Shown here in pieces: positions 390 to 18,060 of a DNA stretch of 64,000 nt (the first letter of the stretch is position 1; every line of letters starts with the position of its first letter). Made by a program: the position numbers and the translations under genes. Below the pieces are notes generated by a model that did not search any database, was not told the DNA's origin, and was given only the letters and a program-made list of their open reading frames with translations. Origin of the DNA: Mycobacterium dioxanotrophicus (GTDB lineage: Bacteria; Actinomycetota; Actinomycetes; Mycobacteriales; Mycobacteriaceae); the NCBI RefSeq assembly GCF_002157835.1, contig NZ_CP020809.1:4464001-4528000 (forward strand), in the 5' to 3' direction.

Positions 390-1190
390 CTACTCGGCAG
401 AGTCCGACCATAAGGCGCCGACCAACCCGTCGACGATGTGCTGCATGCACTGCAGCGCCTCTGGAATCCGATTGCGCCCGAAGCGATACCGCGGCGCATT
501 GATGGTCAGGATTGCGATCATGGTGCCCGACGCGTCCCGTACGGGTCGCGACAGCGACAACAGACCCTCTTCGAGTTCGTTGTCGATCACGCCGAACCCT
601 TGTTCACGAATCTCCTGCAACTCGCGCAGCAGTTTGTCGTGGTCGGTGATCGTGTGCTCGGTGTACGCCGGAAGCTCTTCTGGCAGAACCGCCATGGCCT
701 TCCGGGCAGGCATCTCCGCCAACAACACCTTGCCCGATGAGCTGGCATGCAGCGGCCACCGTTGCCCGACCATGTGCTGGGCCATACCGGATCCCGTACC
801 GACCAGATGTGATCCGAACGCCTCGGCGATCAGGTCGACCCCATCCTGCGAATTCGGTACCGAGATCGACACCGTCTCGTTGAACTTGTCAGCGAGCTTC
901 TGCAGCAGCGGCTGGACACGTGCGACAAGACCGCCGTACGGGTCGGCCCGACGGCCCAGCCGCGCGAGATCCCAGCCCAGAACGTAGTTGTTGTCGACGC
1001 GGTCGACCAACCCGCTGCGTTCCAAACTGAACAGCAACCGGAATGCTGTGGGGCGTGAGATACCGACCGCCTTGGCCAGCACGGTGACCGTCGCCCCCGT
1101 GCGGGGTTGCGCCGCCAGCTCCCGCAGCAGCCGAACAGCCTTGGTCACCGACTTGTTGACCAGATCCTCAGACCCAGCAGCCTCGGCCAT
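390..1190 (-). CDS. IclR-family transcriptional regulator (left copy)
   Basis: This is a 266-aa IclR regulator with an N-terminal winged helix (about residues 10-75, recognition segment GISRPTAFRLL) and a C-terminal effector domain with the family motifs HASSSGKVLLA and EEGLLSLSRPVRD. A GTG lies at 1196, but the ATG at 1190 has AAGGG five bases before it and is preferred. It is a close paralogue of the IclR gene at 15607-16404, and the recognition helices are identical over SRPTAFRLL, so both probably read the same operator. The two genes bracket the catabolic cluster. The effector is unknown; family members bind small acids made in the pathway they control. Confidence 0.9.
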   Translation of the reverse strand: MAEAAGSEDLVNKSVTKAVRLLRELAAQPRTGATVTVLAKAVGISRPTAFRLLFSLERSGLVDRVDNNYVLGWDLARLGRRADPYGGLVARVQPLLQKLADKFNETVSISVPNSQDGVDLIAEAFGSHLVGTGSGMAQHMVGQRWPLHASSSGKVLLAEMPARKAMAVLPEELPAYTEHTITDHDKLLRELQEIREQGFGVIDNELEEGLLSLSRPVRDASGTMIAILTINAPRYRFGRNRIPEALQCMQHIVDGLVGALWSDSAE

Positions 1191-1250
1191 CCCCACCCTT
1201 CACTGTCGATGATCATCTGTCGGTTCACGCACAACTGCTATCCGTTCAGG

Positions 1251-2789
1251 TCAGAACGCCGCCTGACCCCATGACTGTGATTGGCCTGCTTCATGTGTCC
1301 TGCGAGGCACGCCCATCGGGTTGGCATCCTGCAATTGCTCGGGAAGGAGCTCCGTCGGTGCGTCCTGGTAGGCGATCGGGCGCAAGAAACGATTCATCGC
1401 GGAGGTTCCCACCGAGGTGTGCGCAATCGCCGTGGTGGCCGGGTACGGGCCTCCGTGGTTCTGCGCGGGTGTTACCGCCACGCCGGTCGGCCAGCCGTTG
1501 AAGACCACGCGTCCTGTGCGGGCGGCGGCAACACGGATCAGCCCACGCAGCTCCTGACGCTCGGCAGCGTCTGGATTGGCCGGCGTGTGCACCGTGACGG
1601 TCAAGGCGCCGTCGAGACGCGACAGAATCTCATGAACCTCAGCGACACTGGCATATTCGACGACGATTGCCGTGGGGCCGAAGGTCTCCTCCAGCAGGAC
1701 TTCCGCATGTTCAAGCAAAGCAGTTGCGTTGGTGCGCAACAGCGTCGGGCTGAACGACGGCACACCATCTTCGCCGGCCGGAACCTCAGCACCGTCGACC
1801 AGCACGTCGACACCGTCTACGCGTCGGACATCATCGAGTCGGCTGCGGAATCCCTGCGCGATCTTGGCGGTGAGCATGCGCGCGGCCGGAACCTCCGCTG
1901 CCAATTCGGCAATGCGGGCAACCAACGCCGACCCGTGCGGCACGAGCAACAGACCCGGTTTGGTGCAGAACTGGCCCGCGCCCAGCGTGAACGAGCCGAC
2001 GAAGCCCGCGGCGATGTCCTCTGTTCGCTCGGCGGCTGCACCTGATGTGATGACGGCGGGGTTGAGGCTGCCCAACTCGCCGTAGAACGGAATCGGGCAC
2101 TTACGTGCCGACGCGATGTCGAACAGTGCCCGGCCGCCGGGAACGGAGCCCGTAAAGGCCGCTGCCGCGACCCGTGGGTCCTGCAGCGCCCGGACCCCCG
2201 CATCGACTCCGGTGATCATGGCGAAGATTCCTGCTGGAGCACCGGCAGCTGCGAGCGCGGCGGTCACGATGTCGGCGGTCATCGCCGAGGTTCGCGGATG
2301 GCCGGGGTGGGCTTTGAGAATCACAGGGCACCCGGCCGCCAAGGCCGAAGCCGTATCTGTACCAGCGACCGAAAAGGCGAACGGGAAGTTGCTCGCCGCG
2401 AACACCAGGACGGGCCCGACGGGCACCTGATAGCGACGCAGATCGGGGCGCGGTCCGAGGACGAACTGCGGATCCGGCAGGTCGATCACCACGTCGAGGA
2501 AGCGGCCGGCCAGCAGCTCCTCTGCGAACATCCTCAGTTGCACGCTGGTACGCGAAACCTCGCCTCGCAGTCGCGCTTCGGGCAGACCGGTCTCCTCACC
2601 CGCGACGGCGACCAATGAATCAACGTGCGCGGACAGGGCGTCGGCCAGCGCCACCAACACCCGAGCGCGCTGTGTCGGGGTCTGGTCCTCCCACGCCGAT
2701 GCGGCGGCGACGGCTGCATCGAGCACTCGGTCGAGTTCGTGGTCGGTGGTTTCGGCGGATTCGTTCAGATGCTCGTGAACAACTGACAT
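1251..2789 (-). CDS. aldehyde dehydrogenase, 2,5-dioxovalerate (2-oxoglutarate semialdehyde) type
   Basis: The 512-aa protein is an NAD(P)-dependent aldehyde dehydrogenase. The catalytic Cys is about residue 275 (GAGQFCTKPG) and the general-base Glu about residue 238 (FYGELGSLNP). The segments LVFAASNFPFAFSVAG and VILKAHPGHP are typical of 2-oxoglutarate-semialdehyde dehydrogenases, which make 2-oxoglutarate, but related members accept other semialdehydes. The start has AAGGAG upstream with good spacing. It lies 29 bp behind the flavin reductase, so the two form one minus-strand operon controlled from the 3317-3703 region. It may oxidise the aldehyde released by the aldolase at 8111-8902. Family is secure; substrate is inferred. 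Confidence 0.85.
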   Translation of the reverse strand: MSVVHEHLNESAETTDHELDRVLDAAVAAASAWEDQTPTQRARVLVALADALSAHVDSLVAVAGEETGLPEARLRGEVSRTSVQLRMFAEELLAGRFLDVVIDLPDPQFVLGPRPDLRRYQVPVGPVLVFAASNFPFAFSVAGTDTASALAAGCPVILKAHPGHPRTSAMTADIVTAALAAAGAPAGIFAMITGVDAGVRALQDPRVAAAAFTGSVPGGRALFDIASARKCPIPFYGELGSLNPAVITSGAAAERTEDIAAGFVGSFTLGAGQFCTKPGLLLVPHGSALVARIAELAAEVPAARMLTAKIAQGFRSRLDDVRRVDGVDVLVDGAEVPAGEDGVPSFSPTLLRTNATALLEHAEVLLEETFGPTAIVVEYASVAEVHEILSRLDGALTVTVHTPANPDAAERQELRGLIRVAAARTGRVVFNGWPTGVAVTPAQNHGGPYPATTAIAHTSVGTSAMNRFLRPIAYQDAPTELLPEQLQDANPMGVPRRTHEAGQSQSWGQAAF

Positions 2790-2818
2790 CAGTCGGTTTC
2801 TCCTTGGTATCTCGTCTA

Positions 2819-3316
2819 TTACACGGCGATGGGTTGGCGGTAACCGCCGAGCTGCCCTTTGTGGAACACCAGCGGCTCGCCGTCGCCACCGTCCATGGCG
2901 GTGACCTCGGCGACGACGATGACGTGGTCACCACCGTCGAACTCGTGGACCACCTGGCAGTCGATCCAGGCGTGGGCTCCGGTGACGCGCGGCGAGCCGC
3001 CCGGGGAAAGCCTCCAGTCGACGTAGGCGAACTTGTCGGGGTTCTTGCCGGACAGGGCTTTACACACGTCCTTCTGTCCAACGCCCAGCACGCTCGCACA
3101 AAGCTGTCCGGCGGTGCGGAGCCTGGGCCAGCTGGTCGACGTGTGGGCGACACTGAAACTCACCAGCGCGGGACCGAGCGAGAGCGACTGGAAGGTTCCC
3201 ACGATCATCCCCCACGGCTGAGCCGTGTCCGGAAGGATCGCCGATACGGCCACGACGCCGGTCGGGAGGTGGCCCATGACGGTGCGGTAGTGCGTCTGCT
3301 CGATCATCGCTGTCAT
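2819..3316 (-). CDS. flavin reductase (HpaC/NtaB-like, split-barrel FMN binding)
   Basis: This 165-aa protein has the flavin reductase split-barrel fold: an N-terminal PTGVVAVSA strand, the FQSLSLGPALVSFSV segment and a C-terminal GGDHVIVVAEV strand. Such enzymes reduce FMN or FAD with NAD(P)H and pass the free reduced flavin to a partner monooxygenase. The longest reading frame starts at 3370, inside an operator palindrome, but the ATG at 3316 has GGAAGG at the right distance and is preferred. It heads an operon with the aldehyde dehydrogenase. The likely partner is the monooxygenase at 12355-13809, although a second reductase lies closer to it at 17557-18060. Confidence 0.85.
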   Translation of the reverse strand: MTAMIEQTHYRTVMGHLPTGVVAVSAILPDTAQPWGMIVGTFQSLSLGPALVSFSVAHTSTSWPRLRTAGQLCASVLGVGQKDVCKALSGKNPDKFAYVDWRLSPGGSPRVTGAHAWIDCQVVHEFDGGDHVIVVAEVTAMDGGDGEPLVFHKGQLGGYRQPIAV

Positions 3317-3362
3317 CGTTGTAGTCCTTCCGGGTCGTTCGGCCGACTGGACCGATAGTTTC

Positions 3363-3381
3363 ACGTTCATTATTTGAACGT
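3363..3381. promoter_or_regulatory. operator palindrome 1 (ACGTTCA-N5-TGAACGT)
   Basis: Seven-base perfect arms flank a 5-bp spacer TTATT. It lies 46 bp upstream of the flavin reductase start. A further half-site (GTTCG) follows within a few bases. It is one of six matching sites in the first 17 kb and is probably bound by the paired IclR proteins. Confidence 0.7.
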
Positions 3382-3614: not shown

Positions 3615-3703
3615 CCTGCAATCATCGCGGTCGGATGACCGGTGATCTCAGCACCTCGTCACCCTCCCCCGTCCTGAACACCAAGCAAGACAAGGAGTTC
3701 CAG

Positions 3704-4939
3704 ATGCTCTCGACAATTCCCGAAGCCATCGAAGCGCTGGCCGGCAAGAAGATGGTGGTCGTCGTGGACAACGAGGACAGGGAGAACGAGGGCGACCTGA
3801 TCATGGCCGCCGAACACGCCGACACCGAGGCCGTGGCATTCTTCCTGCAGCACACCTCCGGATTCCTCTGTGTGGCGATCGACGAGAACCGCGCCCATGA
3901 ACTGTCACTGGAACCCATGGCCCGCACGAACACCGACCGGCACCGCACCGCGTACCTGGTCACTGTCGACTACAAGCACGGCACCACCACAGGCATCAGC
4001 GCCGGAGACCGCGCTGCCACGGTGCGAGCACTGGCCGATCCCGCCGTCGCGCCCGACGACCTGTCGCGGCCCGGCCACGTCATCCCGCTGCAGGCCAAGC
4101 CCGGCGGCGTGCTGGAACGCGCCGGCCATACCGAGGCCGGCGTGGACTTGTGCAAGGCAGCAGGGTTGAGCGGTGCAGCCCTGCTGTGCGAGATCGTCAC
4201 CCCGGATCGGCGAGACATGATGCGTCGCACCGAACTCGAACAGTTCGCGAAAACGCACGGGCTGCCGATCATTTCCATCGATGCACTACGAGCATGGCGC
4301 CGGCGAGGTCACCCCCTCTCGGCGACGGCTCAGCAACCCAGCATCGTACGGTCCGGCCAGAGCACGCTGCCGACCGAGACCGGCACCTTCCACGCCATCG
4401 CATACCACTCCCCCGAGGACGGCGTCGAACATCTCGCATTGGTGATGGGCGACCCCGCATCGGCCACAGCCCCGCTCGTCCGGGTGCACAGCGAGTGCCT
4501 CACCGGCGATCTCGCAGGATCACTGCGGTGCGATTGCGGAACCCAGTTCCAGTCGGCGCTACAGGCCATCGCCGACGCCGGTACCGGGGTGATGATCTAC
4601 CTGCGCGGCCACGAAGGCCGGGGAATCGGTCTCGGTAACAAGCTGCGCGCCTATCAACTTCAGCAACACGAAGGCCTCGACACGGTCGATGCCAACGTGA
4701 GCCTCGGACTGCCCATTGACAGCCGCAGTTTCACCAGCGCCTGCCAGATTCTCGACGATCTCGGCGTCCGTGCGGTGAGGCTCATGACCAACAACCCCGA
4801 CAAGACCCGCGCCCTCGACGAGCACGGGATCACCGTCGTCGAGCAGGTCGCACATGAGGTGTCGCCCGGCTACTACAACCGCGGCTATCTCACCACCAAA
4901 CGCGACCGCATGGGCCACACGCTGCAGCACATCGGCTGA
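3704..4939 (+). CDS. ribBA: bifunctional 3,4-dihydroxy-2-butanone-4-phosphate synthase / GTP cyclohydrolase II
   Basis: The 411-aa protein makes the two committed riboflavin precursors. Residues 1 to about 200 are the DHBP synthase (DNEDRENEGDL, HTSGFL, GHTEAGVDL) and the rest is GTP cyclohydrolase II (zinc ligands in SECLTGDLAGSLRCDCG, then RGHEGRGIGL). The ATG at 3704 has AAGGAG before it and is preferred over the upstream start at 3635. Its place between an operator and a RidA-SDR pair suggests it is a dedicated copy that boosts FMN supply for the flavin-dependent monooxygenase, not the housekeeping enzyme. That role is inferred from context; the enzymatic call is firm. Confidence 0.93.
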   Translation: MLSTIPEAIEALAGKKMVVVVDNEDRENEGDLIMAAEHADTEAVAFFLQHTSGFLCVAIDENRAHELSLEPMARTNTDRHRTAYLVTVDYKHGTTTGISAGDRAATVRALADPAVAPDDLSRPGHVIPLQAKPGGVLERAGHTEAGVDLCKAAGLSGAALLCEIVTPDRRDMMRRTELEQFAKTHGLPIISIDALRAWRRRGHPLSATAQQPSIVRSGQSTLPTETGTFHAIAYHSPEDGVEHLALVMGDPASATAPLVRVHSECLTGDLAGSLRCDCGTQFQSALQAIADAGTGVMIYLRGHEGRGIGLGNKLRAYQLQQHEGLDTVDANVSLGLPIDSRSFTSACQILDDLGVRAVRLMTNNPDKTRALDEHGITVVEQVAHEVSPGYYNRGYLTTKRDRMGHTLQHIG

Positions 4940-4978: not shown

Positions 4979-5389
4979 ATGACCACCGTCGAAACCCGCA
5001 GCGCACCGTTCACCTGGGCCCAATCAGCGCAGTACAGCCAGGGCGCCAAAGCCGGTGACCTCGTGTTCACGTCGGGTCAGGCCGGGTATGACGACGCGGG
5101 CAACCTGCTGGACGGGTTCGAGGCCCAGGCCCGCCAGGTGCTCCACAACATCGAGGCCGTCCTCATCCAACACGGCGCGTCGCTGTCGTCGGTGGTGAAG
5201 CTGACCGCCTACCTCGGCGACAAGGGTGATTTCGAGGCATTCAAGAAGATCCGCAGTGAGTTCTTCTCCAGCCCGTGGCCGGCCGTGACGGCTGTGCAGA
5301 ACGACTTCCTGGTCGAGGGCATGCTCGTGGAGATGGACGCCATCGCGGTGGCCGGCGGACTCCGCGTCCACGTCGACGACACCGAGTAA
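4979..5389 (+). CDS. RidA-family protein lacking the catalytic-type Arg
   Basis: This 136-aa protein has the RidA (YjgF/YER057c/UK114) fold: FTSGQAGYD near the N-terminus, a central SSVVKLTAYL segment and the C-terminal VEMDAIAV strand. Canonical RidA hydrolyses reactive enamines and imines using an Arg in a P-A-R motif; here the aligned segment is WPAVTAV, with Val at about 103. It is therefore probably not a classic imine deaminase and may act on a pathway intermediate, as RutC does in uracil breakdown. It sits 39 bp after ribBA and 32 bp before the SDR, in one operon. GAAGGGA precedes the ATG. Confidence 0.8.
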   Translation: MTTVETRSAPFTWAQSAQYSQGAKAGDLVFTSGQAGYDDAGNLLDGFEAQARQVLHNIEAVLIQHGASLSSVVKLTAYLGDKGDFEAFKKIRSEFFSSPWPAVTAVQNDFLVEGMLVEMDAIAVAGGLRVHVDDTE

Positions 5390-5421: not shown

Positions 5422-6159
5422 GTGGACCTCGGACTGACCGGCAAGGCCTTCGTCGTGACGGGCGGCAGCGAGGGCCTGGGATTCGCGTCTGCACGTGAAC
5501 TCACCCGCGAAGGCGCAGTCGTGACCATTTCATCGCGCACAGAAGCCAAAGTCGCGGACGCGGTGGACCGACTCGGTCGAGACAGGCCCGGCGCGGTCGA
5601 CGGTGTCGCCGTCGACAACGGGGATCCCGGTGCGGCTGACCGCGTAGTCGCGGCGGCGACGTCGCGGTGGGGCCGACTCGACGGCATGGTCATCAGCGTG
5701 GGCGGACCGCCTGCCGCCACCGCGTTCGCCGCGGCCGACGACGACTGGGAAAGTGCGTTCCGCTCAGTATTTCTGGGCGCCATCCGACTGGTTCGCGCAG
5801 CCGTCCCCGCGATGACAGAGGGAGGCGCCGTCGTACTGGTGCTGTCGACATCGGTAAAGTCCCCGTTGACAGGACTCGGCATCTCCAACGGATTGCGCCC
5901 AGGCTTGGCGATGGTGGCGAAAGACATTGCCGACGAACTGGGGCCCCGCGGCATCCGTGTGGTGAGCATGTTGCCGGGGCTGTTCAACACCGCGCGTGGC
6001 GCCAGCGCGACCGCACAAGAACTCGACAACATTCCCCTGGGACGTATCGGCGACCCCGCCGAGTTCGGCCGTGCAGTCGCATTTGTCGCGTCGCCTGCTG
6101 CGTCCTACATCACCGGTTCCACCATCGCTGTGGACGGCGGTGCGCTGCGCGCGCTGTGA
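5422..6159 (+). CDS. atypical short-chain dehydrogenase/reductase-like protein
   Basis: A GTG start preceded by AAGGAGGA gives 245 residues with an SDR Rossmann fold. The cofactor motif is TGGSEGLG (about residues 13-20) and the C-terminus ends ITGSTIAVDGG. The usual NNAG is replaced by ISVGGPP, and the YxxxK catalytic pair is absent: the region where it should lie reads GISNGLRPGL. It resembles the divergent BKR-like SDR subgroup that lacks the normal tetrad. It may be a reductase with other catalytic residues or a non-redox enzyme. It is the third gene of the ribBA operon. Confidence 0.8.
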   Translation: MDLGLTGKAFVVTGGSEGLGFASARELTREGAVVTISSRTEAKVADAVDRLGRDRPGAVDGVAVDNGDPGAADRVVAAATSRWGRLDGMVISVGGPPAATAFAAADDDWESAFRSVFLGAIRLVRAAVPAMTEGGAVVLVLSTSVKSPLTGLGISNGLRPGLAMVAKDIADELGPRGIRVVSMLPGLFNTARGASATAQELDNIPLGRIGDPAEFGRAVAFVASPAASYITGSTIAVDGGALRAL

Positions 6160-6536
6160 CTTGAGATTCAGTGCCCCGGTGGCACTTTGGCTGCAGCGCG
6201 CGAAATCCAGCATGGGGTGGTCGACGTCGCATAAGCCAACCACGCCCGAATCGCCGGTGAGCCTTGTTATGCGAATCGTGCATCAATATCGGTTTTCGAC
6301 CGACGCACAGCCCGCGGCGTTCGATCATTTTGCCGTGCATACGAAGTCGCACGGACTACGGGCCACCGTGTGGCAGGCCAGGGTGAGACATTGCCACCGG
6401 GTAAACCGTTCGGCTTTCCCACCTGCCACGCGGAGCTCGAAGACCGTTGGTCCGACGGGAAAGCCAGCCCACACGGAGGCCGCGATTACGCCTCTGGCTC
6501 GACAGATTTCAGCTACCCCTCAGCTCCAGGAGGACA
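6160..6536. other. intergenic region before the transporter, contains repeat copy A
   Basis: A 377-bp gap between the SDR and the MFS gene. It holds the left copy of an 83-bp diverged repeat (6267-6349). Otherwise I see no gene or clear terminator. It presumably carries the promoter of the transporter. Confidence 0.5.
6267..6349 (+). repeat. 83-bp diverged repeat, copy A
   Basis: It aligns without gaps to 10405-10487, with about 64 of 83 positions identical by my count. Both copies begin TTATGCGAAT and share CAATATCGGTTTTC. Read from the ATG at 6269 both encode a peptide starting MRI-x-x-QYRFST, and many differences between copies are synonymous (ATC/ATT, TCG/TCA, ACC/ACG, GCA/GCG, GCC/GCA). 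This hints at a short peptide or the 5' remnant of a gene. There is no clear ribosome binding site. Confidence 0.55.
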
Positions 6537-8033
6537 ATGATGTCGATACGAGGATCTGAACCCCCGCCGGCGAGACGGCTTGAGGTCAACGACGTCATCA
6601 TTGCAAACAAGAAGGAGTTGAGGATCGCGCACATCGGTGCGGGCGTCGGCAACTTCATCGAGTGGTACGACATCGGAGTCTACGGCTATCTCGCCGTCAC
6701 CATGACCGCTGTGTTTACCGCAGGCATGGATCGATCGATGGGTCTCGTCGTCACGCTGCTCGGCTTCGCGGTCTCATTCGTGGTGCGCCCTATCGGCGGC
6801 ATGATCCTGGGCCCGTTGGGTGACAAGATCGGCCGGCGAAAGATGCTTTTCTTCACCATCGCACTCATGGCGACCGCCACGACGCTCATCGGCTGTCTGC
6901 CGTCAGCCGAGAAAGTAGGCCTCTGGGTTATTGTTCCGCTCTACATGCTGAAGATGATGCAGGGCTTCTCGACTGGCGGGGAATACTCGGGCGCTTCGAC
7001 CTACATCGCAGAGTTCTCCCCCGATAAGCGCCGCGGTTTGATGGTGGGCCTGCTCAACGTGGGCTCCCAGCTCGGCTTCGCCGCCGGCGCGGGCATCGTC
7101 GCCGTCACCACCGCTTGGTCCACGTCGGTGTGGGGCGAGGACGCGATGGTCAATGGAGCTTGGCGCATTCCCTTCCTTATCGCGGCACCGTTGGGCATCC
7201 TGGCGGTCTGGTTCCGCACCCGCATCCCTGAGTCGCCCGCCTTCGAACTCGCAGAGTCCGTCGAGGAGCACGAGCACGCGGAGGGCCACAAACTCGACCC
7301 ACTGTTCGAGCGTCACGGTCTCGCTGACATCCTGCGCCGGTACTGGCCGGAGATCCTCATCGGTATCGGCGTGATCGCGGCCGACGGATCGGCCGTATAC
7401 CTGCTCCAGAGTTACATGCCGACCTACATGGAAGTTGAGATGGGCGTCCCAGCGTCCCACACTGCCACGGCTGCCGTCGTCGTCCTCGTGATGCAGGCGG
7501 TCCTCATACCGTTCTTCGCGATGGCGGGAGACCGCTTCGGGCGTCGGCCGGTGCTGTTCACCGCCGCCATCGGCAACATTGTTCTGCTGTTACCTGCGTT
7601 CGCCCTCGCTCAACACGGTACGTTCTGGGCGCTGTACACGACGCTGTTCATGCTCGCCGTCCCGAGCGCACTGTTCCTCGCGAACACCGGCGCCCTCATG
7701 TCGGAGCTGTTCCCGACGGCATCGCGGTACGGCTGCGTGGGCTTCACGCACAACGTTGCCATCTCGATATTCGGCGGTACGACCCCGCTGTTCAGCCAGA
7801 TGTTGGTAAATGGCACCGGCAATCTGTACTCGCCGGCGTTGTACGTCATGTTCTTCTCGATCGTCGCAGTCTTCGCGATCTGGAAGATGCGCGAGCCCGC
7901 GGGTCGTCCGCTGCTCGGCTCCGTGCCCGTCGTCGCAACCCGCGAGGAGGCGGAAGCCCTCGTCGCCGGGCAGAACACCAACCCGAAAATTGACACCCGC
8001 ACGATGCCGTTGCAGCTCGCGGCGATCAATTAG
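6537..8033 (+). CDS. MFS transporter, metabolite:H+ symporter (MHS) family
   Basis: The 498-aa membrane protein has about 12 hydrophobic segments and the MHS hallmarks NFIEWYDIGVYGYL at the first helix, GPLGDKIGRRKML in the 2-3 loop, and GFSTGGEYSGASTYIAEFSP in helix 4. Family members (ProP, KgtP, shikimate and citrate carriers) import carboxylates or betaines with protons across the inner membrane. The ATG at 6537 follows CAGGAGGACA; a second ATG comes directly after. It is the only importer in the cluster, so it probably brings in the substrate, which is likely a small acid or zwitterion. The exact solute is unknown. Confidence 0.9.
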   Translation: MMSIRGSEPPPARRLEVNDVIIANKKELRIAHIGAGVGNFIEWYDIGVYGYLAVTMTAVFTAGMDRSMGLVVTLLGFAVSFVVRPIGGMILGPLGDKIGRRKMLFFTIALMATATTLIGCLPSAEKVGLWVIVPLYMLKMMQGFSTGGEYSGASTYIAEFSPDKRRGLMVGLLNVGSQLGFAAGAGIVAVTTAWSTSVWGEDAMVNGAWRIPFLIAAPLGILAVWFRTRIPESPAFELAESVEEHEHAEGHKLDPLFERHGLADILRRYWPEILIGIGVIAADGSAVYLLQSYMPTYMEVEMGVPASHTATAAVVVLVMQAVLIPFFAMAGDRFGRRPVLFTAAIGNIVLLLPAFALAQHGTFWALYTTLFMLAVPSALFLANTGALMSELFPTASRYGCVGFTHNVAISIFGGTTPLFSQMLVNGTGNLYSPALYVMFFSIVAVFAIWKMREPAGRPLLGSVPVVATREEAEALVAGQNTNPKIDTRTMPLQLAAIN

Positions 8034-10721: not shown

Positions 10722-12125
10722 TCAGTCGAAGGCGGTGCGGATGTGCTGCCAGGCGGTCGCGATCTGGGCGGCCCATCGCCAGGTGGCGTCGAGACGTAGG
10801 CATGTTTGGCGGGCGCTGCGGGTGATGCGGGCGGCGACGTGGAGGACCCGGTAGCGGAAGGTGGCGATCTCGGTGCGGGCCAGGCCCGGGTGGGTGCGGA
10901 ATCCGATGAGTCGGCACCAGGTGACCAGGTCGGCGGCGGTGAGGGCGATTTCCAGCCATGCGGCGTTGGCCCAAAATGAGTGGCAGGGCAGGTTGCGCAG
11001 GCCGGTGGCTTTGAGTTCGCGGATGCGGTCTTCGACGCGGGCGTGCTGACGGTGGCGCAGTTCCAGGCCGGCGACCTGTCCTGACACGACGCCGGGTGGT
11101 GTGTCGGTGATGAACGCTGTGATCCGCATCCCGTCGGCGTCGGTGAATCGCAGCTGGGCGCCCGGATGCGGCCTTTCTTTGCGCAGGATCAGCCGCGTGC
11201 CCGGTGGCCACGACGACAGGTTGACCAGGGTGGTGGCTTCGGCGATCCAGGCGCCGTCGCGGAGACCGCCGGCGGTGCCGATCGCCGGGTACCAGCCCTC
11301 GGCGAGGTTGAGGGTGTCCACCGCGTCTTGGACGCGCCAGTCGACGGGGTAACCGAAGGAGAACCCCACCCCGGCGGCCCGGCAGGCGTCGGCGAAGGTG
11401 TGGGTGGCTCCGGCGGTGTCGCAGCGCACCAGCACCTTGGGCTTGTCGGGATGATCGCCAGCCCTGGGGTCGGGTCGCCAGGCCGCGGGCAGCGCTGCCA
11501 GCGCTTGGGCCAGCACGATGACGTGGTCGCTGGCGGTGTTGGAGCCGGCGTTGCCGGTGCGTAGCAGCCCGGCCAGGGCTTCCCGCCGGCGATCTCGGGC
11601 GGTCCAGAAATGCCAGCAGCGGATGGTGCCCGAACGACTTCTTCCAGGTCGGCGTCGCACCGCCTTTGTTGTCGGAGTGATCGATCACCAGGGTGGCGTC
11701 GATGTCGATGTGCAGCCAGTCACCCGGAGCGGGGGCGGCACCGGCGGCCCAGGCCGCCGCCCGCGCGCCCGCTCGGGCCGCCCGCACCGCGGGTAGGTGT
11801 GCGGCGTCGATGCGCTCATCGACCAGCCGCCACATCGTGGTCGTCGAGGCTTTCGCACCGAAGGCGTGCTCACGGTCGCCGCAGAGCTGGCCGACCCCGT
11901 CGATGCAGTCCGCCCGTCAGCAACCGCAGCCGCCAGATCAGCGAACACGTCTCCGGGCGCATACACCCACGGCCCGCGGTAGGTGTCGGCCAAAGCAGCC
12001 GTGACCTGCGCCGATAACCCGGTCCGATCGGCCAGTTCACGTAGCAGGCCCATCCCGGCATGCGACACGACGCCATGGCCGTCGGCCGACACTTTCACCC
12101 GCGATGCGGCCGCGATATTCTTCAC
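10722..12125 (-). pseudogene. IS1380-family transposase, degenerate by frameshifts
   Basis: The N-terminal piece (start 12125, MKNIAAASRVKVSADG) runs to AAAVADG, then the reading moves to another frame at about 11911-11917, where one G seems to be missing from a GGG-C run. The second frame carries MWRLVDERIDAAHLPAV and DWLHIDIDATLVIDHSD. A further shift of two missing Gs at about 11581-11600 leads into the third frame (EALAGLLRTGNAGSNT to the stop at 10722), which includes the conserved DHPDKPKVLVRCDTAGATHT region. As read it cannot make a full transposase. The losses are all in G runs, so sequencing error is possible. Terminal repeats were not resolved. Confidence 0.8.
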
Positions 12126-12269
12126 CTGCGAAGTGCCTTCCCGTCAGGATCTTTGAACCGTAGAGAAGTCCAATTATCCCTTGCAGGACAGGCACTTTCG
12201 CTTATCTACACACCGCCAAAGGCAACATTCCGCGAAAAATTCGGGCTAGCCAACACTTAGACTGAACAT

Positions 12270-12290
12270 CACGTTCACTTATTGAACGTG
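12270..12290. promoter_or_regulatory. operator palindrome 3 (CACGTTCA-N5-TGAACGTG)
   Basis: Eight-base perfect arms flank the spacer CTTAT, about 65 bp before the monooxygenase start. Two more half-sites flank it (TGAAC at 12263 and GTTCA at 12290), giving four alternating half-sites, the most elaborate copy in the window. Confidence 0.75.
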
Positions 12291-12354: not shown

Positions 12355-13809
12355 GTGAAGAATGCACCGCTGGCCCTCTTCGCCTTCGACGTCTTTGCCC
12401 CGTCGCATCTCACGACGGCATCCTGGCGCAGCGAAGGCGACGAAGGATACCGCTACACCGACCTGAAGTATTGGCTCGACACAGCCCGGATGCTTGAGGA
12501 CGCGAACTTCGACGGCATCTTTTTTGCCGACACTGTCGGCGTTCACGACGTGTACGCCGGTACGGGCGACGCGGCGATGCGCGATGCGGCGCAGTATCCC
12601 ATCGACGATCCGACCGTGCTGATCAGCGGAATGGCCGCCGTGACCGAGCATCTCACGTTCGGCGTCACCGTGTCGCTGACCTACGAGCAGCCGTACTTGC
12701 TGGCTCGCCGATTCAGCAGCCTGGACCACCTCACCAACGGCCGCGTCGGATGGAACGTCGTGACCTCTTACTCGGAGTCCGCCGCTCGCAACCTCGGCAA
12801 GGTCGAACAACTCAGTCCCGCCGAGCGTTACGAGTTGGCCGACGAGTACATGGACGTCGTCTACAAGTTGTGGGAAGGCTCCTTCGAAGACGACGCGGTG
12901 GTCCGCGACGGCGAATCCGCGACATACATCGATCCCGCCAAGGTCCATCCGATCAACCACAGCGGCAAGCACTTCACCGTCCCCGGTTTCCACCTGTGCG
13001 AACCCTCCCCCCAGCGCACCCCGGTGCTCTTCCAGGCCGGCTCTTCGTCGTCGGGAGTTGCGTTCGGCGGCAAGCATGCTGAAGCTGCCTTCATCAACAC
13101 CACATCGGTCGGCCAGGCGAAGTCCAGCGCGAAGAAGATCCGGCAGGCAGCCGCCGACGCGGGACGTGATCCCCAGGACGTCAAGGTCGTCGCACTGATC
13201 ACCGTCGTCGTCGCCCCCACCGATGAGGAAGCCCAGGCCAAGTACGAGCAGTACTTGCAAAACGCCACGGCCGAAGGGTGTTTGGCCCGATTCAGCGGCT
13301 GGACCGGAATCGACATGTCGACCTACGACCTCGACACACCGCTGAAATCTGTTGAGACAAAAGCCAGCCAGTCCATGGTGGACCTATTCTCCAAGGCCGA
13401 CCCCAACCGCGACTGGACACCGCGCCAGGTCGCGGAATTCCTCGCCATCGGCGGCACCGGCTGCACGATCGTCGGGTCCCCAGAAACCGTGGCGGCCGAG
13501 CTGCGTCGCTGGCGGGATGAGGGTGATATCGACGGAATCAACCTCAGCTACACCACCAAACCCGGCGGCTGGAAAGAATTCATCGAGTTGGCTCTTCCGG
13601 TGCTGCGGGAGCAAGGACTCATAGCGCCGGCACGTGCCGACGACCAAGCACCGGTCACCATGCGAGAGAAGCTGTATCCCGGGCACAAGCGGACTCTCGA
13701 CACTCACCCAGCAGCGGCTTTCCGCGCCAAGCAGACCCCGCCGTCACCGCGACGCGTGGCACCGCCCTCGGTGACGGCGCCTGAAGCGGTTTCCCAGACC
13801 GCGCAGTAA
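12355..13809 (+). CDS. FMNH2-dependent monooxygenase, NtaA/SnaA/DszA/SoxA family
   Basis: The 484-aa protein belongs to the class-C (luciferase-like) two-component monooxygenases. Visible hallmarks are the N-terminal FAFDVFAPSH, ADTVGVHDVYAG, and the signature GRVGWNVVTSYSESAARNLG at about residues 129-148, then FQAGSSSSG and IVGSPETVA. Relatives open or dealkylate nitrilotriacetate, EDTA, dibenzothiophene sulfone and heterocycles using reduced FMN from a separate reductase. A GTG start is used, with AAGGAAG upstream. The C-terminal 40 residues are Pro/Ala-rich and poorly conserved. It heads an operon with the hydratase and FAH enzyme below operator 3 and is the best candidate for the upper, substrate-attacking step. 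Confidence 0.9.
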   Translation: MKNAPLALFAFDVFAPSHLTTASWRSEGDEGYRYTDLKYWLDTARMLEDANFDGIFFADTVGVHDVYAGTGDAAMRDAAQYPIDDPTVLISGMAAVTEHLTFGVTVSLTYEQPYLLARRFSSLDHLTNGRVGWNVVTSYSESAARNLGKVEQLSPAERYELADEYMDVVYKLWEGSFEDDAVVRDGESATYIDPAKVHPINHSGKHFTVPGFHLCEPSPQRTPVLFQAGSSSSGVAFGGKHAEAAFINTTSVGQAKSSAKKIRQAAADAGRDPQDVKVVALITVVVAPTDEEAQAKYEQYLQNATAEGCLARFSGWTGIDMSTYDLDTPLKSVETKASQSMVDLFSKADPNRDWTPRQVAEFLAIGGTGCTIVGSPETVAAELRRWRDEGDIDGINLSYTTKPGGWKEFIELALPVLREQGLIAPARADDQAPVTMREKLYPGHKRTLDTHPAAAFRAKQTPPSPRRVAPPSVTAPEAVSQTAQ

Positions 13810-13888: not shown

Positions 13889-14686
13889 ATGGCCGCAATC
13901 AATCTCGAAGAGATCGCGAACAGCCTTGATACCGCACGGCGGGAGCGCAAGCCGATCGCCCCGCCGAGCACGACCTGGCCCGGTCTGGACGCCGACGGCG
14001 GCTTCGAGGTCGCGAAGATCGGCGTCGCCAACGCCGTCGCCAACGGAGACCGGCTCGTGGGCTACAAGCTGGGAAACATCGCAAAGGTGATGCAGGAGGC
14101 CTTCGGCCTCGGCCAGCCTGACTATGGACATCTCCTGGCCAGCCAGACCGCTTACGAGAACACTGCCCTGGACCTCGACAATTTCATCGAGCCGTTCGTC
14201 GAACTGGAGCCCGCGTTCGTCCTGCGTCGGGAGCTTCGTGGCCCCAACATCACCGTGGTCGACGTCATCAACGCCATCGAGTACGCGATGCCGGCGATCG
14301 AGATCATCGACTCGCGGGTCAAGGATTGGGCCATCGACCTGCCGGACACGTTGGCGGACAACGGTTCTGTCGGAGCCGTGATCGTCGGCGGCACTCCCCG
14401 GCGCCTCACCGAGCTGACGTTGCGCGACACCCGCGGTGTGCTGCGGTTCAATGACCGCGAAGTCATCGCCGGAACGACGGCCAACATCCTCGGCAACCCC
14501 CTGGCCGCAGTCGCCTGGCTGGTCAACCGGTTGGCCGAATACGACGTTGTGTTCGAGCCCGGCCAGTTGATCCTGCCCGGCAGCTGCCTGAAGGCGGTCC
14601 CCATGCGGGAAGTGGGTCGTTGGTCGGGGACGTTCGAGGGGTTCGGAACCGTCGAATTCGACGTCGTCGATTCCACCAAGAACTGA
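13889..14686 (+). CDS. 2-oxopent-4-enoate hydratase family (MhpD/HpaH-like)
   Basis: The 265-aa protein belongs to the FAH-fold hydratase/decarboxylase family. The metal-ligand region EPFVELEPAFVL (about residues 103-114) and the C-terminal LPGSCLKAVPM are typical. Such enzymes add water to 2-hydroxydienoates to give 4-hydroxy-2-oxo acids, the substrate class for HpaI aldolases. It lies 79 bp after the monooxygenase and 33 bp before the FAH gene in one operon. 4-Oxalocrotonate decarboxylases share this fold, so a decarboxylase role is the main alternative. Confidence 0.85.
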   Translation: MAAINLEEIANSLDTARRERKPIAPPSTTWPGLDADGGFEVAKIGVANAVANGDRLVGYKLGNIAKVMQEAFGLGQPDYGHLLASQTAYENTALDLDNFIEPFVELEPAFVLRRELRGPNITVVDVINAIEYAMPAIEIIDSRVKDWAIDLPDTLADNGSVGAVIVGGTPRRLTELTLRDTRGVLRFNDREVIAGTTANILGNPLAAVAWLVNRLAEYDVVFEPGQLILPGSCLKAVPMREVGRWSGTFEGFGTVEFDVVDSTKN

Positions 14687-14719
14687 ACACGTCGATCCAC
14701 AGCGGGAGGTAGTCGCCGT

Positions 14720-15562
14720 ATGCGTCTTGCCAACATCGCCAACCGCGCGACGCTGGTCGGTCCCGACGACCAAATCATCGACATTGCAACCGGATCCGGC
14801 GGTAGGTTCGGTACTCGGATTCAGGATTGCTACGAACGCTGGGACGAACTGCTAGATGTCATTGCGGACCTACCTGTGACAGGTCCCGGCCTGTCACAGG
14901 TTCCGCTGACCGACTATGGAAGTCCAGCGCCCCAACCGCGTCAGATCTTTGCCATCGGCCTCAACTACGCCGACCACGCAGCAGAGGCCAACCTTGCTGT
15001 CCCCGAGGAATTGACGGTATTCACCAAGTTCGTCACTTCCCTGGCCGGGCCTTACGGAACAATCACCCTGCCGCCCGGGACAGTGGACTGGGAAGTCGAG
15101 ATGGTGACGGTCATCGGGCGAGGAGGTCAGCACATCTGTGCTGAACACGCCTGGGACCATGTCGCCGGTGTCACTGTGGCACAGGATCTTTCGGAGCGCT
15201 CGATGCAGCTCAGTGGGGATGCCCCACAGTTCAGTCTGGGCAAGTCGTTTCCAGGTTTTGGGCCGATGGGCCCCGTATTGGCTACCCCTGATGAATTCGA
15301 GGATCCCAACAACATCGCATTGGGTTGCAGCATCAACGGCGAACCGGTTCAGAGCGGCACTACTGCCGACATGGTTTTCCCTGTCCCCGAGATCGTCGCG
15401 CGCCTGTCGAGAATCACCCCACTATTGGCCGGCGACATCATCTTCACCGGCACCCCAGCAGGCGTTGGTATCGGCAGGTCACCGCAGCGATTCCTCCAAC
15501 CGGGCGATGAGCTCGTCACCCGTATGCAAGGCGTCGGCGAAATGCGGCACCGACTCCGGTGA
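14720..15562 (+). CDS. fumarylacetoacetate hydrolase (FAH) family protein
   Basis: The 280-aa protein has the FAH catalytic domain: FAIGLNYADHAAEA, metal ligands in VDWEVEMVTVIGR, VAQDLSERSMQ, and the C-terminal IFTGTPAGVGIG. Members hydrolyse acylpyruvates, decarboxylate or isomerise 2-oxo-dienoates (HpaG/HpcE type). GGGAGG precedes the ATG. As the third gene of the monooxygenase operon it probably acts on the opened product before the hydratase. It converges with the right IclR gene, 44 bp away. Family firm, reaction inferred. Confidence 0.9.
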   Translation: MRLANIANRATLVGPDDQIIDIATGSGGRFGTRIQDCYERWDELLDVIADLPVTGPGLSQVPLTDYGSPAPQPRQIFAIGLNYADHAAEANLAVPEELTVFTKFVTSLAGPYGTITLPPGTVDWEVEMVTVIGRGGQHICAEHAWDHVAGVTVAQDLSERSMQLSGDAPQFSLGKSFPGFGPMGPVLATPDEFEDPNNIALGCSINGEPVQSGTTADMVFPVPEIVARLSRITPLLAGDIIFTGTPAGVGIGRSPQRFLQPGDELVTRMQGVGEMRHRLR

Positions 15563-15606
15563 TCCGGCTGGATCTCGGCGCTGAAAGCTGCTCTCCCCCA
15601 CGATCT

Positions 15607-16404
15607 TCAGTCGGCGACCGACGCGTCCTGCCAAATCTCGTCGGTGAGCCGGTCGACGGTGACGTGCATCTGCTGCAGTCCCTCGGGGATACGGTCACGG
15701 CCGAACCGGTACCGCGGGGCATTGAGGGACAGCACGGCCACCAGGGTGCCGGAGGAATCGCGTACCGGACGTGACAGCGACAGCAGCCCTTCTTCGAGTT
15801 CGTTGTCGATGACTCCGAACCCCTGCTCGCGGACCTGCTCGAGTTCTTTGAGCAGGGTCTTGCGGTCGGTGATGGTGCGCTCGGCGTAGGCCTCGAGGGT
15901 TTCCGGCAGCAGCGCAACCACCTTGTCGACCGGCATATCCGCCAGCAGCACCTTCCCGGACGAACTCGCGTGCAGCGGCCACTGTTTGCCGATCATGTTG
16001 CCCGACATCACCCCGACCACTCGGGAGCCGATGGCCTCGGCGATCAGGTCCAACCCGTCCTGTGCATTGGGCACCGCCAACGTGGCCGTTTCGTTGAATT
16101 TGTCGGCCAGTTCCTGCAGCAGGGGCTGGGCCCGGGCCACCAAGCCGGCGTAGGGATCGGCGCGCCTACCCAACCGTGCCAATTCGCACCCGAGGGTGTA
16201 GTTGTTGTCGACCCGGTCGACGAAACCGGTGCGTTCCAGGCTGTAGAGCAGGCGAAACGCGGTCGGGCGGGAAATGCCGACGGCCTTGGCCAGCGTGGTC
16301 ACCGTCGCACCCGATCGAGGTTGAGCGGCCAACTCCCGCAGCAATCGCACCGCTTTGGTCACCGACTTGTTCGTCAACTCCGTCGGCTCGATCGGCTCGC
16401 CCAT
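15607..16404 (-). CDS. IclR-family transcriptional regulator (right copy)
   Basis: The 265-aa paralogue of the IclR gene at 390-1190; by eye about 70% of residues match. The winged helix carries NKSVTKAVRLLRELAAQPR and GISRPTAFRLL; the effector domain has HASSSGKVLLA and EEGLLSLSRPVRD. A TTG at 16422 opens the longest frame, but the ATG at 16404 follows GAAGGGA with proper spacing and matches the arrangement of the left copy. An operator palindrome lies 80 bp upstream, so it may regulate itself. It probably controls the monooxygenase, ribBA and reductase operons. Confidence 0.9.
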   Translation of the reverse strand: MGEPIEPTELTNKSVTKAVRLLRELAAQPRSGATVTTLAKAVGISRPTAFRLLYSLERTGFVDRVDNNYTLGCELARLGRRADPYAGLVARAQPLLQELADKFNETATLAVPNAQDGLDLIAEAIGSRVVGVMSGNMIGKQWPLHASSSGKVLLADMPVDKVVALLPETLEAYAERTITDRKTLLKELEQVREQGFGVIDNELEEGLLSLSRPVRDSSGTLVAVLSLNAPRYRFGRDRIPEGLQQMHVTVDRLTDEIWQDASVAD

Positions 16405-16484
16405 GCCACATCCCTTCCCCAAGCGCTCACGTCTCGCGGCACACTGCCCCTGGCCTCCACGTATGGTGATTCTAACGCTAAAGC

Positions 16485-16499
16485 GTTCAATTAGTGAAC
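16485..16499. promoter_or_regulatory. operator palindrome 4 (GTTCA-N5-TGAAC)
   Basis: Spacer ATTAG; lies 80 bp upstream of the right IclR gene. It overlaps another small inverted repeat, AACGCT-AA-AGCGTT at 16474-16487. Autoregulation of the IclR gene is the simplest reading. Confidence 0.65.
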
Positions 16500-16749
16500 A
16501 AAGTATTCATCGCGACCCCGGGTCGATACCCAGCCCAACAGGCGTGACGCACATGGTGGGCACACCCACCTGGACAATGCGCCGCGGTTGCCACGATGAC
16601 GTGTCCCGCCCCGCCACTAAGGCCCGGCCGTACCAATACGGCTGCGGTTCGGGCAGTGGGTAATTCGTAGCCAGAAGTCCATTCCATGCACCTGAAGGTT
16701 CCCGCCGGATCCTTCCTGCCCAATGAGGCACGCAATCCAGCAAGTTCCA

Positions 16750-16764
16750 GTTCGAATAACGAAC
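16750..16764. promoter_or_regulatory. operator palindrome 5, variant (GTTCG-N5-CGAAC)
   Basis: Self-complementary arms with A-to-G change in the fifth position and spacer AATAA. It lies 41 bp before an ATG at 16805 that has a Shine-Dalgarno-like GGGAG but opens a doubtful frame, suggesting a former promoter whose gene has decayed. Confidence 0.5.
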
Positions 16765-17185
16765 ACTGCGTTCATACTGGGTAGTAGCTAGCGGGAGATC
16801 CGCGATGAAGTTGCGCCGAGAGGTTCATCCTGTCTTCGAGCGTCTTCGCAAGGTTCCCACACATGTCGCCGGGTTGCCCAACATTTGCCGAGACCGCTCA
16901 GGTGCACCCAGTCATATTCCGGGCCGTCCGACATCACGCCCGATGCGCACGAGAGCGTCTTTGCTGCGCTCCTTACCTGGTCAGCGCCGCAAACGCTACC
17001 GGATGAGGGGCTTCGGGCCGAGGCAAGAATGGCCCGCGAAAGTACGTCGCGAGGACGCTCCCGCCGCCAGAAGTGTCAGCGACAAGCCGCTCGACCCGCG
17101 CGCCGTCGTGAGGCGCGACTGCACTTTTGTGTCGCACGCCATCCTTGACGACCACTGAGGTACGTGGCACAATTTTGATCACCCC

Positions 17186-17200
17186 GTTCAATAATTGAAC
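17186..17200. promoter_or_regulatory. operator palindrome 6 (GTTCA-N5-TGAAC)
   Basis: Perfect arms with spacer ATAAT. It lies 356 bp before the flavin reductase at 17557, far for a direct operator, so the transcript may have a long leader or a small gene may intervene. Confidence 0.6.
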
Positions 17201-17556
17201 ATACAGGAAGGGCCAAATCGGCTCGCCCCAGCTGTACAAAACACCCGACCACCCAACGGCAACGGCAGGCGCCAGAACCACACGATCCCGACGAAACTCG
17301 ACACCAGCGCCCGAATACCGCAGTGAGACAAGGAGTGCACGATCATGTCGACCATCGGCCCTCGATGCACTCGGCAACAGGAAGATGGCCCGGCAACAAC
17401 TCGACCAAGAAATCATCGAATAGTCAGCGATAGCACCAGATCGAATCGCGGTTTCGCATAATCTCTATCTGCCAATGGTTTTCGGCTTACCCCAGCCGAT
17501 CCCGAGCCCCACTTACCTGCACCGCACCGCCAACAACAACCAACAAGGAGTACCCG

Positions 17557-18060
17557 ATGAGCGCAAGTTCGACCAAACCCGATCTGGACCTGATGAAGCA
17601 GGTAAACCGCCAGTTCGTGAGCGGTGTGACCGTCGTGACCGCGATGGACGGCGAAAAGCCGCGCGGCCTTGCGGTCAACGCGTTCTCAAGCGTCTCACTG
17701 GAGCCGCCTACCGTCATGGTCGCTGTGCAGCGGACCTCCTCCACCCACGAATGCCTCTACCGTGCACAGCATCTGGCCATCAATATCCTCTCCACCGACC
17801 AACTCGACGTCGTCGGCGTGTTCGCGACCAAGACCGAAGACAAGTTCGCCGGTCTGGACTGGGAGCCCGGACCGTTCGGCAGCCCGCTGATCCAGCGCAG
17901 CGCTGCCCGGATGGAAGTCGAGATCCGCGAACGACTCCAGGCCAGCACGCATACCCTGTTCTTCTGTCGAGTCATGCATGCCGAGGTCAGCGACCGCCAT
18001 GCGATGGTGTACAGCGCCGGGAAATTCTTCGACGGCGGCGCGCTGACGCCCTTGGCGTGA
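17557..18060 (+). CDS. flavin reductase (split-barrel, second copy)
   Basis: The 167-aa protein has the flavin reductase domain: QFVSGVTVVTAM, RGLAVNAFSSVSLEPPTVM, and C-terminal HTLFFCRVMHAEV. It shares the fold with the protein at 2819-3316 but is clearly different in sequence, so the cluster has two reductases instead of a duplication. AAGGAG precedes the ATG. The likely role is to supply FMNH2 to the monooxygenase at 12355-13809; two reductases may serve different flavins or different oxygenases elsewhere. Confidence 0.87.
   Translation: MSASSTKPDLDLMKQVNRQFVSGVTVVTAMDGEKPRGLAVNAFSSVSLEPPTVMVAVQRTSSTHECLYRAQHLAINILSTDQLDVVGVFATKTEDKFAGLDWEPGPFGSPLIQRSAARMEVEIRERLQASTHTLFFCRVMHAEVSDRHAMVYSAGKFFDGGALTPLA

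Follow-up and report, generated by a model that had tools for sequence, protein, structure and literature searches.

A gene cluster of Mycobacterium dioxanotrophicus may form most of an IclR-associated regulon for the breakdown of proline-type cyclic betaines (stachydrine, hydroxyproline betaine), whose ring would be opened by a flavin-dependent monooxygenase of the LLM type; taken whole, we regard this reading as an evenly balanced call. The cluster lies in a 64,000-nucleotide stretch (the window, G000:C1:4464001-4528000 of the 8.08 Mb genome), and its genes, taken from a listing of open reading frames (ORFs) and from Pfam and NCBIfam family scans, are given in Table 1. A more specific version is plausible and tentative, falling a little short of an even call: the LLM enzyme, dependent on reduced flavin mononucleotide (FMNH2), would open a saturated quaternary pyrrolidinium ring at N-C-alpha, with release of dimethylamine or dimethylglycine and no ring demethylation, in a previously undescribed, aerobic pathway whose one palindromic operator is common to Actinomycetota and an alphaproteobacterium. 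An earlier note on this DNA had named an LLM monooxygenase, a hydratase, a FAH enzyme, an HpaI aldolase, an aldehyde dehydrogenase (ALDH), two flavin reductases, a RidA protein, an SDR lacking YxxxK and an MHS importer, and the ORFs and family scans agree with it on all of them. Its proposal that a two-component flavin monooxygenase stands in place of another oxygenase type, within a co-regulated degradation set, holds up well. Its suggestion of a cyclic amine as probable substrate is strengthened and narrowed to proline-type betaines by an HpbD-like epimerase and the ProP-like character of the importer. Betaines and hydroxyprolines had appeared there merely as growth tests; the epimerase, an extra RibBA, two IclR regulators, an insertion sequence and the continuation of the cluster upstream of the window are additions of the present analysis.

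Conservation of the LLM gene, its partners and a palindrome

The LLM protein scored 507 bits against TIGR03860 (cut-off 279.7), and its best PDB match was the dimethyl-sulfide monooxygenase 6ak1 (496 bits), ahead of 3b9n (387), 6lr1 (324) and 5w48 (303). DmoA, NtaA and EmoA, of the NtaA/SnaA/DszA group, oxidise a carbon beside S or N; the window protein shares with them its TIGR03860 membership and the 6ak1 match but has its own clade and other gene neighbours. A tree of 114 LLM sequences placed it with 18 orthologues in one 19-member clade (support 1.0), inside which none of the 95 other sequences fell. Among the matches listed, the closest relative is 90% identical and belongs to a Mycolicibacterium metagenome-assembled genome.

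Gene content was compared over 80 loci, the best 80 of 123 LLM relatives. Eighteen of these (L009-L026) carry orthologues 67-90% identical to the window protein, and the other 62, at 53% or less, served as paralogue controls; a partner was counted from 35% identity upwards, with 40% of the query covered. In this search for the same gene set, which the earlier note had called for, LLM orthologues were found in 18 other genomes, accompanied by partner genes to differing extents: ALDH in 15 orthologue loci versus no control locus, hydratase in 11 versus none, FAH in 7 versus none, IclR in 15 versus none and flavin reductase in 17 versus 2. HpbD was present at 2 of the 18 loci and RibBA at one, each against 0 of 62 controls. 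Moreover, a SnoaL gene occurs in 16 of the orthologue loci, a flavin adenine dinucleotide (FAD) amine oxidase in 15 and a different HpaI subfamily in 6; some of these loci are shortened by contig ends (L009 spans 3 kb). When the window's genus was searched (297 genomes), orthologues of LLM (E<=1e-170) and of HpbD (at least 56%) turned up in the same two genomes, this one included.

The palindrome GTTCA-N5-TGAAC was derived from intergenic comparison. The window has five copies, all at or between cluster genes, against 0.02 expected from shuffles; because the pattern was derived from these sequences, the counts over the whole genome and in relatives are fairer tests. Genome-wide there are 11 copies, 7 of them in the cluster, and the reversed-pattern control gave one. 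Two of the 7 belong to the part of the cluster upstream of the window, where one precedes an MFS carrier and the other a third IclR gene, IclR3. The relatives have 37 copies in 16 of the 18 orthologue loci against 0.12 expected from base composition, and the 62 control loci have one against 0.50. In 11 of the 18 loci a palindrome starts 9-204 nt before the longest LLM ORF. In L012 one lies 161 nt upstream of a ProP-like importer. L016 has two ahead of a BCCT gene, at 532 and 613 nt, and L014 has two at 256 and 408 nt upstream of another, between BCCT and alcohol dehydrogenase (ADH) genes. In L021 one precedes a riboflavin kinase ORF by 23 nt. BCCT is a family of betaine, carnitine and choline carriers. 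We describe the gene set as a putative IclR-associated regulon marked by this one palindrome, which the IclR proteins may bind, since IclR genes are constantly present.

Further occurrences of the palindrome were noted. It is shared by a permease-like gene, two SDR-like genes, a flavin reductase gene and an LLM-like gene (21% to the window's) elsewhere in this genome (L146 2543-7901, G000:C1 ~6960543-6965901; named by sequence or BLAST). In Arthrobacter, palindromes lie upstream of a small conserved protein of about 90 aa ending LDSFL..LMYGE (L013 5200-5472, L016 5766-6053, L020 4230-4652), whose L016 copy had no Pfam match at E<=1e-5.

Separate flavin reductases, FlvRed1 and FlvRed2, are present in the cluster; the former is 41-52% identical to reductases in 17 of the 18 orthologue loci, and the latter 29-41% to reductases in 14. 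At 51% identity or more, RibBA has three places in the genome, the cluster copy included, and a second RibBA lies 1.8 kb from an LLM paralogue. Flavin-supply genes also accompany orthologues, as a RibBA-like gene in L017 and the riboflavin kinase in L021. On a plasmid of Paracoccus sp. MA (L118 7977-11450), ribB is the second gene after an LLM gene that is 52% identical to that of the window, a further instance of flavin supply beside an LLM oxygenase.

Candidate substrates and the lower pathway

The enolase-superfamily protein at 9127-10257 matched 4e8g, 4izg and 4j1o at 554 bits, 2pmq at 463 and 4h2h at 462, and the next entry, 4mgg, at only 229. The PDB table names these just 'mandelate racemase/muconate lactonizing enzyme'; we take 4e8g and 2pmq to be proline betaine/hydroxyproline betaine 2-epimerases (HpbD). 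In the alignments the catalytic-site motifs are conserved, namely the stretches EGVW and Qx[15 protein letters not shown]. A tblastn search gave 40 plasmid records at 54-65%, in four of which (63-65%) the gene is named hpbD. The protein is thus called HpbD-like, and by homology it would act as a hydroxyproline betaine 2-epimerase. Assignment of it and of two upstream enolase-family proteins as cis-3-hydroxy-L-proline dehydratase was rejected (NF043002, 263.7 bits, and 272.8 and 302.2 bits upstream, against a cut-off of 500).

For the importer at 6447-8033, ProP is the top-scoring NCBIfam model, and relatives of 63-75% identity occur in L012, L016, L017 and L024. Since the cluster combines an HpbD-like epimerase with a ProP-like importer, proline-type betaines are the leading substrate, and we consider this substrate class fairly well supported.

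The ALDH gives a hint of the end product. Its top two matches among 456 plasmid records (53.6% and 51.9%; L151, L152) lie in hydroxyproline-type operons, with genes of the proline racemase, DHDPS and ornithine cyclodeaminase families and FAD/2Fe-2S oxidoreductases; four lower matches that were opened sit in other settings. We take this operon set to be that of hydroxyproline catabolism, in which the ALDH presumably oxidises 2,5-dioxopentanoate to 2-oxoglutarate. The window ALDH, possibly close kin of that dehydrogenase, may thus point to 2-oxoglutarate. The earlier note had called the lower pathway pyruvate-forming; pyruvate may be only part of the outcome, the flow going to 2-oxoglutarate and/or pyruvate. 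The hydratase, which could be aligned to HpaH-type and MhpD-type structures, belongs like the FAH and HpaI enzymes to families that act on 2-oxo acids. These genes had been taken for the lower half of the homoprotocatechuate (Hpa) pathway, an assignment that the family tests do not support, since HpaH (194 bits, cut-off 351.5), HpaI (130, 368.8), HpaE (100, 638) and the HpaG C-terminal model (136, 276) all scored below cut-off and no dioxygenase was found among the scanned genes.

The statement that an extradiol or intradiol dioxygenase is missing holds for the genes scanned. Family scans that covered the cluster, together with selected genes from the upstream 24 kb and from the window as far as 38 kb (38-64 kb lay outside the scans), turned up no ring-cleavage dioxygenase, and a co-regulated one just outside the window, which the earlier note had named as evidence that would count against its pathway, was not found among the scanned genes of those 24 kb. 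Genome-wide, the nearest of two LigB and four PF00775 intradiol matches lies ~0.46 Mb away, in a search that did not extend to VOC-type extradiols.

Several known systems resemble the cluster in part. Catabolism of proline betaine and hydroxyproline betaine through hpb genes in Paracoccus, Rhodobacter and rhizobia is said to have been described by Zhao in 2013 and Kumar in 2014. It shares with the cluster the HpbD-type 2-epimerase, betaine importers and possibly the end product 2-oxoglutarate. The hpb systems have a Rieske-type oxygenase or an MttB-family neighbour, taken as demethylating, whereas the cluster has an LLM enzyme with its reductase, hydratase, FAH, ALDH, other importers and IclR. 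Three hpbD plasmid neighbourhoods were opened. In Paracoccus pantotrophus, hpbD is accompanied by genes for a Rieske-type oxygenase, a reductase, a formaldehyde dehydrogenase and an ABC importer of betaine, as well as by one of the proline racemase family, and in Mesorhizobium it adjoins a trimethylamine-methyltransferase-family (MttB-family) gene; the gene names in these two records fit a demethylating route. In the M. dioxanotrophicus cluster neither a Rieske oxygenase nor an MttB-family enzyme was found; of the six PF00848 matches in the genome the nearest is ~0.7 Mb away, and the genome's own Rieske enzymes were rejected as pathway members, none being near the cluster. Hydroxyproline catabolism via 2,5-dioxopentanoate, as we take it to run in L151 and L152, has an ALDH 52-54% identical to that of the window and, as proposed for the cluster, takes a C5 skeleton to 2-oxoglutarate, but its operons contain a proline racemase, a DHDPS-family deaminase and an FAD/2Fe-2S dehydrogenase, none of which was found in the cluster. 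RutA (uracil), PyrA (pyridine) and TgnAB (trigonelline) are two-component flavin systems that open N-heterocycles and, like the cluster, pair an LLM-type oxygenase with a separate flavin reductase; in the proposed route, too, the ring would be opened beside N. They differ in that the substrate proposed here is a saturated quaternary pyrrolidinium and the downstream enzymes are others; RutA-like uracil breakdown was rejected by score (TIGR03612, 81 bits against a cut-off of 498.3). The cluster probably represents betaine catabolism with a different first oxygenase.

Proposed route and alternatives

In the route that we propose, the ProP-like carrier would import the betaine and the HpbD-like epimerase would set the stereochemistry at C-alpha. 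The flavin reductase would feed FMNH2 to the LLM enzyme, with extra flavin from RibBA. The LLM enzyme would hydroxylate C-alpha beside the quaternary nitrogen, and opening of N-C-alpha would give 5-(dimethylamino)-2-oxopentanoate or its 4-hydroxy form. Chemically, the hydratase could dehydrate the 4-hydroxy form and, with RidA, yield an enamine and then 2,5-dioxopentanoate and dimethylamine; in Arthrobacter, a nicotine-oxidase-like amine oxidase may handle the non-hydroxylated form instead. The ALDH, judging from its relatives, would form 2-oxoglutarate. The weakest step is a side branch in which SDR and FAH, or the HpaI-type aldolase, might give pyruvate and dimethylglycine or its aldehyde.

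A C5 2-oxo acid formed by N-C-alpha opening is proposed because of the kin of the ALDH, the families acting on 2-oxo acids and an enzyme of the Gulosibacter LLM locus (L024). In that locus, where the window-type hydratase, FAH and ALDH are absent, a thiamine diphosphate (ThDP) enzyme nearest to 5-guanidino-2-oxopentanoate decarboxylase (465.5 bits, cut-off 500) is followed by another ALDH; it would fit the pathway, since 5-(dimethylamino)-2-oxopentanoate is a close analogue of 5-guanidino-2-oxopentanoate. Likewise, L023 has a dimethylglycine oxidase (1353 bits to 1pj5) that fits a branch yielding dimethylglycine; it lies close to a FAH gene whose reading frame is in two pieces. The cleavage position is the least certain point, and the order of the later steps is provisional.

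A number of observations weigh against this route or its substrate. The importer's ProP score (361 bits) is below the cut-off of 544, and ProP-like importers occur in 4 of the 18 orthologue loci (0 of 62 controls); BCCT carriers occur in 3 (L014, L016, L018) and in one control (37%), and the one in L018 has no palindrome nearby. Loci L009 and L011 lack any perfect palindrome, and of the 11 genomic copies four lie outside the cluster, where one precedes a further flavin reductase/LLM operon and the other three show no evident link, so that the palindrome as a wholly cluster-specific mark had to be rejected. The window's HpaI, RidA and SDR were found in none of the 18 or 62 loci at 35% or more, and the FAD amine oxidase of 15 relatives' loci is absent from this cluster. 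The ALDHs of the orthologue loci are mostly 41-44% identical to the window's (one of 18 reaches 45%); because the window ALDH is closer to those of plasmid hydroxyproline operons, it may come from elsewhere. Against models for alpha-ketoglutarate semialdehyde dehydrogenase (KGSADH) it also scored below cut-off (NF052305, 89 of 750 bits; NF042993, 80 of 770); the two models may stand for other types of KGSADH. Of the 18 loci, one has the dimethylglycine oxidase and one the ThDP enzyme, which missed its NCBIfam cut-off. An HpbD homologue was found genome-wide at 56-88% in 3 of the 18 genomes, at only 34-35% in three more and, at E<=1e-40, in none of the other 12; the epimerase is thus optional, and the core substrate could be wider. 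Around the Shinella hpbD neither Rieske nor MttB is listed, in a gene table that is incomplete. The amine oxidase homologue elsewhere in this genome (63%, C1 599811) was tried as the missing partner and rejected, its neighbours (PucR-like regulator, amidohydrolase-like and permease-like ORFs, named by sequence) looking like another pathway.

Two alternatives keep the substrates and change the chemistry. If the LLM enzyme were an N-demethylase replacing the Rieske oxygenase, proline betaine would yield N-methylproline and formaldehyde, and then proline. In the PDB the LLM protein matches a dimethyl-sulfide monooxygenase best, an enzyme that removes a methyl group; the second methyl could then fall to the amine oxidase of Arthrobacter. 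The Rieske-type oxygenase beside hpbD in Paracoccus pantotrophus speaks for such a reaction, as does a review passage (PMC11337228), in which the bacterial proline betaine route is demethylation to proline and only demethylation is described. We consider this unlikely: demethylation leaves no role for the hydratase, FAH, HpaI, the KGSADH-like ALDH or the Gulosibacter ThDP decarboxylase, and no scanned cluster gene is named formaldehyde dehydrogenase (the upstream zinc ADH-family gene at L112 71-1213 was scanned with Pfam only). Hydroxylation at C5 would instead give 2-(dimethylamino)-5-oxopentanoate, which the ALDH could convert to N,N-dimethylglutamate and the amine oxidase to 2-oxoglutarate and dimethylamine. 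This employs the LLM enzyme, the reductase, the ALDH and the Arthrobacter amine oxidase and reaches the same end product, but it leaves the hydratase, FAH, HpaI and the 5-guanidino-2-oxopentanoate-decarboxylase-like enzyme, all of families acting on 2-oxo acids, idle, and we rate it slightly lower again.

Other alternatives change the substrate. That 12 of the 18 core genomes have no HpbD homologue at E<=1e-40, and that flavin-dependent opening of pyridine and trigonelline is known, would suit a core that degrades some other N-heterocycle or cyclic amine, with HpbD and importers as an accessory module; this is improbable, in view of the common palindrome, the occurrence of both genes in the same two of 297 genomes, the betaine transporters near palindromes in some relatives and ALDH and ThDP relatives that suit a C5 proline skeleton. 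Riboflavin catabolism of the rca kind, with an LLM lyase, a flavin reductase and a flavin kinase, is suggested by the riboflavin kinase in L021 and the relation to the riboflavin lyase 5w48, which however ranks behind 6ak1, 3b9n and 6lr1; the extra RibBA makes riboflavin, the epimerase and betaine carriers would go unexplained, and we attach very little weight to this explanation. Sugar-acid and homoprotocatechuate lower pathways likewise contain FAH, HpaI, SDR and enolase-superfamily genes, and an unrelated flavin enzyme might adjoin such a pathway (FAH, NF053535, 190.7 bits). The cut-offs were missed, the enolase-family protein is HpbD-like and the LLM gene recurs with several partners and one palindrome, which makes this the least credible explanation of all. 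Ring opening of a proline-type betaine by the LLM enzyme is the explanation that we prefer.

Plants commonly contain stachydrine and its hydroxylated relatives as osmolytes. Were the preferred route correct, the carbon and nitrogen of these compounds would meet another fate (dimethylamine or dimethylglycine) through the flavin route of Arthrobacter and mycobacteria, the opening of a saturated quaternary ring would be a new reaction type for LLM oxygenases, and the regulon would be recognisable in genomes by its palindrome. Among the top matches listed from open-licence literature, nothing dealt with flavin-dependent ring opening of proline betaine.

Gene layout and upstream extension

Table 1. 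Cluster genes and putative operators, in window coordinates
Feature	Position	Strand	Basis
IclR regulator 1	390..1196	-	Pfam IclR_C 109 bits and HTH_IclR; 72% to IclR2 and IclR3
ALDH, possible 2,5-dioxopentanoate (alpha-ketoglutarate semialdehyde) dehydrogenase	1251..2789	-	Pfam Aldedh 161 bits
FlvRed1, likely monooxygenase partner	2819..3370	-	PF01613 120 bits
Palindrome GTTCA-N5-TGAAC, putative operator, overlaps FlvRed1 start codon	3365..3379		
Palindrome, putative operator, first base 36 nt 5' of RibBA	3599..3613		
Extra RibBA (riboflavin synthesis), probable FMN supply	3635..4939	+	PF00926, PF00925
RidA-family imine/enamine hydrolase-like protein	4979..5389	+	PF01042 98.5 bits; TIGR00004 90.6 bits, cut-off 106.25
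Atypical SDR, SNGLRPG replacing YxxxK, start estimated	about 5422..6159	+	PF13561 144 bits; sequence
MHS-type MFS importer, ProP-like (glycine betaine/proline)	6447..8033	+	Best NCBIfam match ProP, 361 bits
HpaI/HpcH-family aldolase	8111..8902	-	PF03328 100 bits
HpbD-like proline/hydroxyproline betaine 2-epimerase, enolase superfamily	9127..10257	-	Structure and plasmid gene matches
Insertion sequence, ends tentative, outside pathway	10550..12250	-	DDE_Tnp_1_4; transposase in two frames, 10722-11660 and 11685-12125
Palindrome, putative operator, first base 82 nt 5' of LLM monooxygenase	12273..12287		
LLM (NtaA/DmoA-type) FMN-dependent monooxygenase, proposed ring-opening enzyme	12355..13809	+	TIGR03860 507 bits
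2-oxopent-4-enoate-type hydratase	13889..14686	+	HpaH 194 bits, DmpE 178 bits, both below cut-off
FAH-family hydrolase (2,4-dioxo acid hydrolase-like)	14720..15562	+	PF01557 210 bits; NF053535 190.7 bits, cut-off 500
IclR regulator 2	15607..16422	-	Family scan; 94% to IclR3 upstream of window
Palindrome, putative operator, 5' of IclR2	16485..16499		
Palindrome, putative operator, between IclR2 and FlvRed2, 371 nt 5' of FlvRed2	17186..17200		
FlvRed2	17557..18060	+	PF01613 132 bits

IclR1, ALDH and FlvRed1 are transcribed divergently from RibBA, RidA, SDR and the MHS importer. The insertion sequence separates the epimerase gene from the LLM gene, which are divergent. Its inverted repeats (10550-10567 and 12233-12250, one of 48 pairs reported) are 83% complementary, and 22 nt lie between the end of the right one and the palindrome at 12273. 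Downstream of FlvRed2 come a LysR gene and then succinate dehydrogenase genes, which, with malic enzyme and 2-oxoacid dehydrogenase E2 genes, occupy 20268-28873.

The cluster runs on for ~16 kb upstream of the window (loci L112, L113) with genes for a SnoaL-like protein, an MFS carrier, IclR3, a third enolase-family protein (2pce-like, 474 bits), a second HpbD-like protein (58.5% to the first; 553 bits to 4e8g), an ADH-family protein and another MFS carrier. Compared with the LLM loci, the upstream proteins other than IclR3, which was grouped into the common IclR family of those loci, have best relatives 48-76% identical; a 26% ADH match in L022 and matches of 35-39% between enolase subgroups were set aside. 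IclR2 and IclR3 (L112 15327-16121) are 94% identical in protein and 93% in DNA over 807 nt, from which we infer a recent duplication inside the cluster.

Enolase subgroup 3 (2pce-like, 68-76% conserved) and the ADH-family gene (64-66%) form a recurring pair (L014 2470-4742, L021 17447-19809, L024, L025, L112 16168-19779), which perhaps handles another betaine; the enolase-family gene of L025 reads in pieces. The region 5' of the cluster (L112 71-6562) contains the zinc ADH-family gene, polyhydroxyalkanoate (PHA) synthase genes, an acetyl-CoA hydrolase/transferase-like gene and a gene for an HpaB-family protein; a link to 4-hydroxybutyrate/PHA is possible, and the HpaB-family protein may be a further flavin oxygenase. 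No linkage of the PHA synthase, acetyl-CoA transferase-like or HpaB-family genes to the LLM loci was found, though no search was aimed at it. A broken second copy of the 2-oxoglutarate decarboxylase gene (L112 8082-11808, G000:C1 4448082 on) adjoins the cluster's SnoaL gene and is 99% identical over 621 aa to the long-frame copy at C1 1928767.

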